From: Gramella sp. AN32
Lineage (GTDB): Bacteria; Bacteroidota; Bacteroidia; Flavobacteriales; Flavobacteriaceae
Reading direction: 5' to 3'
Length of the DNA stretch: 64,000 nucleotides
Assembly (NCBI RefSeq): GCF_023718305.1
Contig: NZ_QEYO01000001.1
Coordinates: forward strand, 124,001-188,000
Part shown: piece after piece, positions 29,970 to 36,917 of the stretch
Numbering within the stretch: position 1 is the stretch's first letter
How the letters are laid out: each line of letters begins with the position of its first letter
The notes under the pieces: generated by a model
What the model was told of the DNA's origin: nothing
What the model saw: the letters and a program-made list of their open reading frames with translations, nothing else
The model's database searches: none
Position numbers and translations under genes: made by a program

Positions 29970-31415
29970 ATGCAGCCGTATCAAGTATTAATCCTTATCG
30001 CCCTCTATTTTATTGTCTTAATTACTATCTCATTTTTCACAGGTAGGGGAGGAAGTAATGCTGAATTCTTCAAGGCGAATAAACAGGCTCCATGGTACCT
30101 GGTTGCATTTGGAATGATTGGCGCTACTTTAAGCGGCGTTACCTTTATTTCGATTCCCGGCACGGTGGAAGCAGATTCGTTTAGTTACTTCCAGGTAGTC
30201 CTTGGTTATACTGTGGGTTACGCTGTCATTGGCCAGGTGCTTCTTCCGCTCTATTATAAGATGAACCTTACCTCGATTTATACCTATCTGGAAAGTAGGT
30301 TTGGGAATGCTTCTTATAAAACCGGGGCTTCATTTTTCCTTTTATCAAGGGTTGTTGGGGCGAGTTTTAGGTTATTCCTTGTAGCGAATGTTTTGCAATT
30401 AATCGTGTTCGATGCGATGGGTGTACCCTATTATGTAACTGTTACTCTTACTATATTACTTATTTGGCTATACACTTTTAGGAGCGGAATTAAAACAATT
30501 ATATGGACAGATACCCTGCAAACGCTGTTTATGTTAATGGCTCTGGGAATTTCCATTTATTTTATTTCTGAAAACCTGGGGATCACCCTGGGAAGTTTCT
30601 TCAATTACCTAAGCGAAAGCGAGCATTCCAAAATCTTTTTCTTTGACGACTGGAAAAGTAAGGATCATTTCGTGAAACAATTCTTATCGGGTGCATTTAT
30701 AGCCATTGTGATGACCGGGCTGGATCAGGATATGATGCAAAAAAACCTAACCTGCCGCTCGTTAAAAGATGCCCAGAAGAACATGCTTTGGTTTACCATT
30801 GTGCTTGTTTTTGCCAATTTTCTCTTCCTGGCACTAGGTTTATTACTTACAGATTATGCTGAAATTAATGGGGTTATCGAGAAGAAAGATGACCTTTTTC
30901 CTGCTATCGCCGCGAGCGGGGAACTAGGACTGGCGGTGGCTATATTTTTTATCCTGGGACTTATTGCCGCGGCTTATTCCAGTGCAGATAGTGCTCTTAC
31001 TGCCTTAACAACTTCCTTTAGTATCGATATTTTGGATATTGAAAAAAAGTATGATGAGAAAAAACAAATTAGAGTCAGAAAACAAATTCATATTGCTATT
31101 TCACTTTTATTAATCATCGTGATGCTCATCTTCAAATATGCCATTGCCGATAAAAGTGTGATCAATAAATTATTCCAGTTTGCCGGTTATACGTATGGTC
31201 CATTGTTAGGCCTGTATAGTTTTGGGTTGTTCACAAAACTGCAGGTAAAAGACAAACTTGTGCCACTGGTTGCCATCGCTGCCCCAGTTTTATCTTATTT
31301 TATAAGCATGCACAGCCTGGCCTGGTTTGGCTTTGAATTTGGTTTCTTTATTTTAATTCTGAATGGTTTTCTAACCTTTCTGGGATTAGTATTGATTACA
31401 AGAAAGCATCACTAA
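29970..31415 (+). CDS. Sodium:solute symporter family protein
   Basis: This 481-residue integral membrane protein of the SSSF family has about 13 membrane segments. The first transmembrane stretch and the sodium-site region EFFKANKQAPWYLVAFGMIGATLSGVTFISIPGTV are typical, as is GLDQDMMQKNLTCRSLKDAQKNM between helices and AAYSSADSALTALTTSFSIDI (the sodium-binding TM8 region). The substrate cannot be read from sequence; relatives carry sugars, proline, pantothenate or sialic acid. Its 3' end overlaps the convergent CoA-binding gene by 30 bases. Confidence 0.94.
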   Translation: MQPYQVLILIALYFIVLITISFFTGRGGSNAEFFKANKQAPWYLVAFGMIGATLSGVTFISIPGTVEADSFSYFQVVLGYTVGYAVIGQVLLPLYYKMNLTSIYTYLESRFGNASYKTGASFFLLSRVVGASFRLFLVANVLQLIVFDAMGVPYYVTVTLTILLIWLYTFRSGIKTIIWTDTLQTLFMLMALGISIYFISENLGITLGSFFNYLSESEHSKIFFFDDWKSKDHFVKQFLSGAFIAIVMTGLDQDMMQKNLTCRSLKDAQKNMLWFTIVLVFANFLFLALGLLLTDYAEINGVIEKKDDLFPAIAASGELGLAVAIFFILGLIAAAYSSADSALTALTTSFSIDILDIEKKYDEKKQIRVRKQIHIAISLLLIIVMLIFKYAIADKSVINKLFQFAGYTYGPLLGLYSFGLFTKLQVKDKLVPLVAIAAPVLSYFISMHSLAWFGFEFGFFILILNGFLTFLGLVLITRKHH

Positions 31416-31748
31416 TGTACAGGCATTTTCGAATTTGATGTTGTTTTTCCGCAGCAAATTATAAAGCTCAGGATTTTCAGTTCCCGGGTTAAAAATGATC
31501 CTTTTTGGATTTAAGGAAAGGATGTAATCATAATATTCGGTTTGCCTCTTTGCATTGAGATATAGCGTAATTGTATGAACATCTTTAAAATCAATCTGTT
31601 CATTTTCAATAGCTACATCAAAAATTTCTCCTTTTCTTAAACCAACTGCCACAACGGGCTGGTTGTACCGCGTAAGCCTTTCAATGGCCAGGTAGGAATA
31701 CCTTGCAGGATTTAGGGAAGCCCCTAAAACAAGTGTTTTCTTTTTCAT
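31386..31748 (-). CDS. CoA-binding domain protein (YccU-like)
   Basis: The 120-residue protein is a single CoA-binding Rossmann domain of the YccU/succinyl-CoA-ligase type: KTLVLGASLNPARYSYLAIERLTRYNQPVVAVGLRKGEI gives the GASxxPxRYSY nucleotide loop, and RIIFNPGTENPELYNLLRKN the conserved NPG(T/A)EN segment. It should be cytosolic. Its function is unknown beyond CoA binding. It overlaps the 3' end of the symporter gene on the other strand. Confidence 0.9.
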   Translation of the reverse strand: MKKKTLVLGASLNPARYSYLAIERLTRYNQPVVAVGLRKGEIFDVAIENEQIDFKDVHTITLYLNAKRQTEYYDYILSLNPKRIIFNPGTENPELYNLLRKNNIKFENACTLVMLSCNQY

Positions 31749-31835
31749 TATATAAATGTAAATAAAAAAAAGTGTAACAATTCTGCCAACTTCAGGTCTT
31801 TAAATTGAGTTCCGGAACTTACAGTATTGTGCCGT

Positions 31836-31843
31836 TAGCTTTG
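31836..31843 (+). promoter_or_regulatory. -7 box (TAGCTTTG) of a candidate small RNA
   Basis: This exact TAnnTTTG on the plus strand has no protein-coding frame behind it. A strong terminator follows 35 bases downstream, so the two delimit a short transcript. Confidence 0.5.
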
Positions 31844-31849
31844 ATGGTT

Positions 31850-31910
31850 AGTGTTAACTGGGATAATACTGTTATTGCCTGCATTTCCTCACCGGGATGC
31901 AGGTTTTTTT
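31850..31910 (+). ncRNA. Candidate small RNA, about 60 nt
   Basis: The 248-base gap between two minus-strand genes contains an exact -7 promoter box (31836-31843) and, on the same strand, a textbook Rho-independent terminator (31878-31910): 7-bp stem cctgcat/atgcagg, extendable inward by wobble pairs, followed by seven T. The intervening sequence (31850-31877) can form a small gtta/taac stem and has no ORF. No plus-strand gene lies close enough upstream to own the terminator. The identity is unknown; I cannot match it to a named RNA from memory. Ends are estimates. Confidence 0.5.
31878..31910 (+). terminator. Rho-independent terminator of the candidate small RNA
   Basis: The stem cctgcat (31878-31884) pairs with atgcagg (31897-31903) and is followed by seven T. 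Orientation is plus, opposite to both flanking genes. Confidence 0.8.
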
Positions 31911-31950
31911 GAATTGAAATAAATACTGGCTGCTGGAAGGTTTTCTATAA

Positions 31951-31980
31951 AAAAAGCCTGAAGTCAACTTCAGGCTTTTA
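31951..31980. terminator. Bidirectional terminator of the ABC-F gene
   Basis: A perfect hairpin aaaagcctgaagt / acttcaggctttt lies 16 bases past the ABC-F stop, with A and T runs on the two sides. It could also stop readthrough of the candidate small RNA. Confidence 0.85.
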
Positions 31981-31996
31981 TATCAGAATAAAACAA

Positions 31997-33724
<1,728 letters not shown>

Positions 33725-36909: not shown

Positions 36910-36917
36910 CAAATATA
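36910..36917 (-). promoter_or_regulatory. -7 box (TATATTTG) of the SRP RNA gene
   Basis: This exact TAnnTTTG on the minus strand ends 5 bases before the paired 5' end of the RNA, the distance expected between a -7 box and a transcript start. It is the best internal support for the promoter pattern in this window. Confidence 0.65.

Follow-up and report, generated by a model that had tools for sequence, protein, structure and literature searches.

Between two genes transcribed from the minus strand, one for a CoA-binding protein and the other for an ABC ATPase, the window (the whole 64,000-nucleotide stretch of Gramella sp. AN32 DNA analysed here) carries a short plus-strand unit that is almost certainly a real small RNA (sRNA) gene. 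The features of the locus are collected in Table 1. A preliminary description had placed both neighbours on the minus strand, which is confirmed; the ATPase is, in our reading of its domains, of ABC-F type. The same description had proposed that a small RNA is encoded here on the plus strand and ends at a terminator of its own, formed by a 7-bp stem plus seven T. The terminator is located as claimed: its arms CCTGCAT (31878-31884) and ATGCAGG (31897-31903) are followed by seven T (31904-31910), and a stem scan even lengthens the stem to 11 pairs (31877-31904). Three terminator-like sites are present in 31400-32100, compared to 0.6 in shuffled sequences, and the stem is kept in all 19 aligned genus loci. 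The interval from the sRNA to the convergent ABC-F gene contains a symmetric hairpin, AAAAAAGCCTGAAG...CTTCAGGCTTTT (31949-31981), at which transcription could end in both directions.

Table 1. Features of the sRNA locus and its surroundings (positions in the window)
Feature	Position	Strand	Basis
Symporter gene	29970-31415	+	
CoA_binding_2 (PF13380), divergent neighbour	31386-31748	-	Pfam match
Whole sRNA gene including promoter	31774-31910	+	
Likely ECF-sigma promoter, GTAAC-N17-GTC	31774-31798	+	conservation, company
Predicted sRNA, about 105 nt	about 31806-31910	+	conserved block, fold z -4.0, covariation; 5' end inferred from promoter, +/- few bases
5' hairpin, CCGG loop	31807-31820	+	fold, genus covariation
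Central hairpin, invariant sequence at apex	31821-31872	+	fold, covariation
TAGCTTTG box, part of the RNA rather than promoter	31836-31843	+	fold, shuffles, conservation
TTTGATGGTTAGTG, invariant apical sequence, proposed pairing region	31840-31853	+	conservation
Intrinsic terminator, 11-pair stem plus T7	31877-31910	+	stem scan; 28 homologues, each of the 11 consensus pairs with compensatory change
ABC ATPase, convergent neighbour	31997-33622	-	two ABC_tran domains plus ABC_tran_Xtn

Spread and structure of the RNA

Homologous stretches were found by BLASTN in 18 of 23 congeners when 59 genomes (that of the window and 58 relatives) were searched. The RNA model confirmed even the weakest match (G015, E 0.03) with an E-value of 4e-23, and covariance model R1 added two further genomes (G006 and G007), so that the sRNA is present in 20 of the 23 congeners; in G019, G020 and G023 it was not found by BLASTN. 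In the oriented alignment of 19 genus loci, the conserved block spans the region from GTAAC to the terminator. These homologues, together with the fold (z -4.0), bear out the plus-strand RNA gene of the preliminary description. The CoA_binding_2 gene marks the sRNA locus in all 19 genus loci.

Many marine flavobacteria share the RNA: at E <= 1e-3, R1 matched at least 96 of 397 family genomes and 69 of 237 genera; 96 is a lower bound owing to stricter filters, and E-values of R1 are rough. Family loci read in this work are the 28 best-scoring R1 matches outside the genus. A named pattern scan, which demanded both the core and the promoter and therefore shows spread and not invariance, yielded at least 111 R1 matches among the 116 loci listed (76 from the first 80, 35 from the remaining 36). 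The pattern loci listed belong to Christiangramia, Leeuwenhoekiella, Dokdonia, Salinimicrobium, Salegentibacter, Mesonia, Zunongwangia, Ulvibacter, Altibacter, Patiriisocius, Bizionia and Winogradskyella, among others, and three Flavobacterium sp. loci (L310, L321 and L323) among the 116 also carry the RNA. Loci L241, L254, L269, L288 and L316 were not matched by the RNA model and were set aside as chance occurrences of the pattern.

The predicted fold of 31805-31912 is a row of three hairpins with -38 kcal/mol (z -4.0), a value reached by none of 200 shuffled sequences. Covariation, suggested as a check in the preliminary description, is evident in the genus RNA alignment: for 17 of 32 consensus pairs at least one sequence has both sides changed with the pair kept. 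Within the 5' hairpin such double-sided changes affect alignment pairs 8-17, 9-16 and 10-15 (in 1, 3 and 2 sequences, respectively), and pair 10-15 is broken in 4 of the 19 genus sequences. Alignment of 28 divergent homologues recovers only the terminator helix, with compensatory change in each of its pairs, because the central arms vary. As these arms are unalignable across the family, single folds were used in their place. The mean z of 32 divergent sequences, including that of the window, is -5.4, the shuffles preserving base composition only, and at least six pairs enclose the core in 31 of these 32 homologues. Only the central ATGG of the core is mostly open in the single folds (unpaired 0.5-0.9), the remainder being unpaired at 0.3-0.55.

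The sequence GATGGTTAGTG at the apex of the central hairpin does not vary among the 19 genus loci or among the 28 family loci read, the latter having been found with model R1, which itself favours that sequence. The statement that no ORF is present fares in two ways. A conserved frame is indeed missing, whereas ATG GTT AGT GTT does open a frame of 22 codons in the window. This short ORF was rejected as a candidate, the frame ranging from 15 to 62 codons in the 19 genus loci and from 4 to 86 codons in 76 named loci.

The preliminary description had also asked that known RNAs such as Flavo-1 and 6S be excluded with Rfam covariance models, and no Rfam family matches the locus. With Rfam 15 and gathering scores, the whole window contains only the Bacteroidales small SRP RNA (RF04183, 36807-36913, minus strand, 102.8 bits), at the 5' side of which a TATATTTG box is located (36910-36917, minus strand). 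At E <= 10 the region 31400-32300 gave 29 weak matches, all below gathering score, with Flavo-1 and 6S not among them; these matches, for example atoC at 19.3 bits compared to a gathering score of 50, were taken as chance. Thirteen loci of relatives gave no Rfam match. 6S-Flavo RNA (RF01685) is likewise a flavobacterial RNA of similar length (its model has 108 positions), but it occupies another place in the genome (G000:C16:18450-18566, 100.3 bits), and identity with 6S, Flavo-1 or any other Rfam family was rejected.

The likely promoter motif and genes sharing it

All 19 genus loci carry GTAAC-N17-GTC before the sRNA, at the same place and spacing. Among the 28 family loci read, 20 have the motif before the sRNA (19 with N17 and one with N18) and 8 are without it. 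The window contains a single match, with 0.40 expected and at least one match in 34 of 100 shuffles; as one match in 64 kb is within chance, the case for a promoter rests on conservation and company. The extended motif TGTAAC-N17-GTCDTNA has two matches in the window genome, one at the sRNA and one at the gene of an ECF sigma factor, compared to one control match.

This ECF sigma factor is a member of NCBIfam NF058625 ("GFO_1088 family"; 223 bits, cut-off 130), and the motif lies 62 bases from the start of its gene. Downstream follow a 149-aa protein without family match, by position probably an anti-sigma factor, and a DUF4252 protein. Orthologues of the sigma factor at E <= 1e-30 are present in the window genome and in 22 of 23 congeners. 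The motif with N17 precedes the ECF gene in 21 of 23 genus loci, 62-65 bases ahead of the start, and in the other two (L091 and L096) one letter of GTC differs. Across the family, the 30 sRNA-bearing genomes examined all code for the ECF sigma factor, with the motif at the same spacing in 28 of them; L137 has no motif and L127 is cut by the 90-base stretch examined.

Two more genes share the motif. An outer-membrane receptor gene (Pfam domains in L003: CarbopepD_reg_2, Plug and OMP_b-brl_3) is preceded by it in 16 of the 17 genus loci having that gene, L016 being the exception. A search of 21 genus genomes gave a gene for a DUF4870 membrane protein in 20, with the motif (N17) before it in 20 of 20; outside the genus the motif precedes it in 12 of 28 cases. 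Genome G020 (L178) contains the DUF4870 gene with both motif and loop site, and neither the sRNA (by BLASTN) nor an ECF orthologue (at E <= 1e-30) was found in it.

The window presents a free-standing structured RNA with an intrinsic terminator, and the sRNA and the ECF gene have the same motif and spacing. On this sequence evidence the sRNA is very probably ECF-dependent, and the NF058625 factor would be the sigma that reads its promoter. In 17 of 19 genus loci, although not in the window species (31749-31773), a separate TAnnTTTG box belongs to the divergent CoA_binding gene. GTAAC of the sRNA is located just past this box, so that the two promoters abut.

Two other explanations of the locus are very improbable. 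The terminator might merely end transcription of the symporter gene, which is on the same strand and is followed by no other plus-strand ORF of at least 80 aa between 31415 and 31836, and there would then be no separate RNA. This is hardly credible in view of the conserved promoter, the covarying hairpins and the invariant loop upstream of the terminator, and in eight loci the RNA follows another gene. The preliminary description itself had taken TAGCTTTG for the -7 box of a promoter, which would be read by the primary sigma factor at 31836 and yield an RNA of roughly 60 nt. The box is indeed there on the plus strand, an exact match to TAnnTTTG. However, matches to TANNTTTG occur at chance level (80 in the window compared to 77, sd 9, in shuffles), and TTG or TTC is absent 17-21 bases upstream of the box in the window and in 15 of 19 genus loci. 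The box moreover sits within the central hairpin of the longer RNA in the fold of 31805-31912. The suggested test of conservation in relatives turned out well for the stem (19/19) but not for the box, whose pattern is kept at its position in 12 of 19 genus loci and lost in 7. A primary-sigma promoter is for these reasons scarcely tenable. The ECF-type motif is the likelier promoter, and the transcript should measure about 105 nt, its start being expected about 30 bases upstream of the box.

Loop complementarity and proposed regulation

Complementarity of the invariant loop to leaders of the genes sharing the motif was computed and compared with permuted loops and with other leaders. It is strongest for the DUF4870 leaders of the genus, with a mean duplex energy of -15.4 and no permuted loop as good in 300 or in 500; in the window genome 14 bases of this leader are predicted to pair without a gap. 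Outside the genus the DUF4870 complementarity is not kept. Predicted pairing with receptor leaders has a mean of -11.6 in the genus (0 of 300 permuted loops as good) and -8.3 in the family (13 of 300). The receptor leader set misses L080, one of the eight loci in which the RNA follows the receptor gene.

ECF leaders were examined in 43 of 53 ECF loci, namely those with an sRNA locus from the same genome. Their mean is -10.1 for the 24 family genomes and again for the 19 genus genomes, compared to -6.25 in 313 other leaders, a background that still included receptor leaders and was later reduced to 280. The result against permuted loops is modest with 500 loops (17 as good in the family, 27 in the genus); a second run gave 5 and 9 of 300. 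Mono-shuffled family ECF leaders never reached -10.1 in 300 trials. A value of -10 or better was reached by 11 of the 19 ECF leaders from the genus, by 12 of the 24 from the family and by 26 of the 313 others, and ACTAACC is present in 17 of 43 ECF leaders compared to 3 of 313. The ECF sites are mostly located at about -16 to -3; predicted sites in ECF, DUF4870 and receptor leaders alike are no more than about 30 bases away from the start codon. The ECF leader of the window species itself shows no excess, with -9.7 matched or bettered by 72 of 150 other leaders (-8.8 in a separate calculation). Leaders of three control genes, CoA_binding (19 and 17 leaders), FabH (11) and DUF4252 (11), also lack excess complementarity, with means of -5.5 to -6.2 and 45-100 of 300 permuted loops as good. 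The full-length complex has -52.5, compared to -38.0 and -9.4 for the partners apart, a gain of only about 5 kcal/mol.

Four genomes contain 20 matches to CTAACCATCA, 4 of which are the sRNA gene itself. The other 16 include one ECF leader, two leaders of one orthologous gene, DUF4870, one site 35 bases before a secreted-protein ORF (one genome) and one 86 bases before an oxidoreductase-like ORF. A second DUF4870-like ORF has three matches towards its end, which may be a coding coincidence or an additional target; the remainder lie in coding sequence or antisense to it. In three of the four genomes (L152, L158 and L147, near 1500), that CTAACCATCA is found about 100 bases before a gene for a PadR-like regulator (names assigned by eye).

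We propose that 31774-31910 encodes a trans-acting sRNA, the noncoding part of an ECF-sigma regulon of Flavobacteriaceae, and that this sRNA damps its own regulon; the probability of this reading is roughly 0.6. The NF058625 factor would transcribe its own operon (sigma, the 149-aa probable anti-sigma and the DUF4252 protein), the receptor gene, the DUF4870 gene and the sRNA, the last from its own promoter, as in the window, or from the 3' UTR of the receptor gene, as in other genera. The invariant apex would then pair in vivo just upstream of the start codons of regulon messages and block initiation, which would be the simplest effect of pairing within about 30 bases before a start codon. The ECF response, once turned on by its presumed signal, would thus be damped, by negative feedback on the sigma factor and by incoherent feed-forward on the DUF4870 and receptor messages. 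That the sRNA represses its regulon, sigma included, has slightly better than even odds. The best pairings are specific for the genus, which suggests a changing set of targets around a fixed apex.

An ECF-dependent sRNA could also use its invariant loop otherwise, as a protein-binding site (a sponge or a docking site for a chaperone) or for other targets, the complementarity to leaders being incidental. In favour of this possibility, the core is fixed over 11 or more bases while the targets vary, it is paired in part, the open apex being a small ATGG, the DUF4870 sites are restricted to the genus and the ECF sites are weak in about half of the genomes. Within the genus, however, three regulon messages have sites and three control genes show no excess, and we consider such a loop unlikely. 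Less likely still is that the pairing is real and its sign opposite, the sRNA opening or protecting the leaders and thereby amplifying the response by feed-forward. The leaders that hold the sites, between promoter and start codon, are indeed short, and FoxJ, an ECF-dependent sRNA of Fusobacterium, is reported to activate as well (PMC11005410). All predicted sites are nevertheless close to the start codon, as stated above. Pairing at this distance usually blocks initiation, and repression accordingly remains the preferred sign.

Related systems and gene layouts

To our knowledge, few sRNAs with known targets exist in Bacteroidota. The open-access literature searched yielded no paper on GFO_1088 or on sRNA feedback on sigma messages, and no flavobacterial sRNA study besides PMC9723704. 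Sigma-E type sRNA arms have been described in Proteobacteria and Fusobacteriota (PMC11005410). The enterobacterial examples, MicA, RybB and MicL, are Sigma-E dependent (PMC8103513) and likewise present the sRNA arm of an ECF regulon, with pairing to envelope-protein messages as proposed here. Contrary to them, the predicted targets in our case are members of the regulon including the sigma message, and the gene is also found in a receptor 3' UTR; no sequence relation is implied. In its proposed action the sRNA comes closest to two Sigma-E dependent sRNAs from outside Proteobacteria, FoxI and FoxJ of Fusobacterium nucleatum; rpoE falls when either is overexpressed (PMC11005410). FoxJ measures about 156 nt, and both have a cytosine stretch as seed (PMC11005410), whereas the sRNA described here has a fixed TGATGGTTAGTG apex.

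The closest published lead is Rfp11 of Flavobacterium psychrophilum, which has a predicted ECF promoter (SM6, with a CGT box), a strong predicted structure, a start site given as TSS 182564 and relatives in other species (PMC9723704). The 11 selected SM6 promoters of that species include those of Rfp11 and of an ECF sigma/anti-sigma operon (PMC9723704). The likeness to our sRNA is one of description (flavobacterial, structured, with a predicted ECF promoter), and no F. psychrophilum locus is among the 116 pattern loci listed. Rfp11 may be a relative of the window sRNA; if so, the transcript was already known and its regulatory reading is new. Rfp18 of the same species, which affects protease messages through its third stem-loop, is by description also a conserved structured flavobacterial sRNA, but it is absent from the printed SM6 promoter selection (PMC9723704).

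The position of the sRNA gene takes two forms. At the window locus and most other loci read, the sRNA has its own likely promoter; among the 20 family loci of this type, the CoA-binding gene is beside the sRNA in 19 (read by eye), the symporter gene adjoining too. The remaining 8 of the 28 family loci read, from eight genera, have no motif of their own, and the RNA directly follows the stop codon of the receptor gene. The receptor gene carries the motif in 8 of 8, so that both layouts put the RNA behind the same promoter type. sRNAs derived from mRNA 3' ends are known as a class (PMC9438474). The layout in the eight genera resembles it, with the RNA right after the receptor stop codon and an intrinsic terminator at its end, while the window and most other loci read differ from it by their own promoter.

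A broader scenario, which we put forward tentatively and at a little less than even odds, is that the sRNA gene moved between two equivalent positions, behind its own ECF promoter or in the 3' UTR of the ECF-driven receptor gene, with ECF control kept. Its unchanging loop would throttle its own sigma factor and co-regulated envelope genes, the sRNA being the noncoding branch of an ECF response of envelope type in Bacteroidota. If true, the pair of layouts sharing one type of promoter would clearly illustrate, in nature, how a stand-alone sRNA and one from a 3' UTR can take each other's place. Being widely conserved and ECF-linked, with a loop that does not change and targets that can be tested, such an sRNA would show that the principle of sRNA arms reaches into Bacteroidota, and the DUF4870, DUF4252 and receptor families would gain a regulatory context.

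The receptor gene is located downstream of the sRNA in 17 of 19 genus loci. The two loci without it are L014 and that of the window species (31911-31996), whose genome offers as best match to the missing gene one of only 35% identity; the sRNA is retained in its absence.
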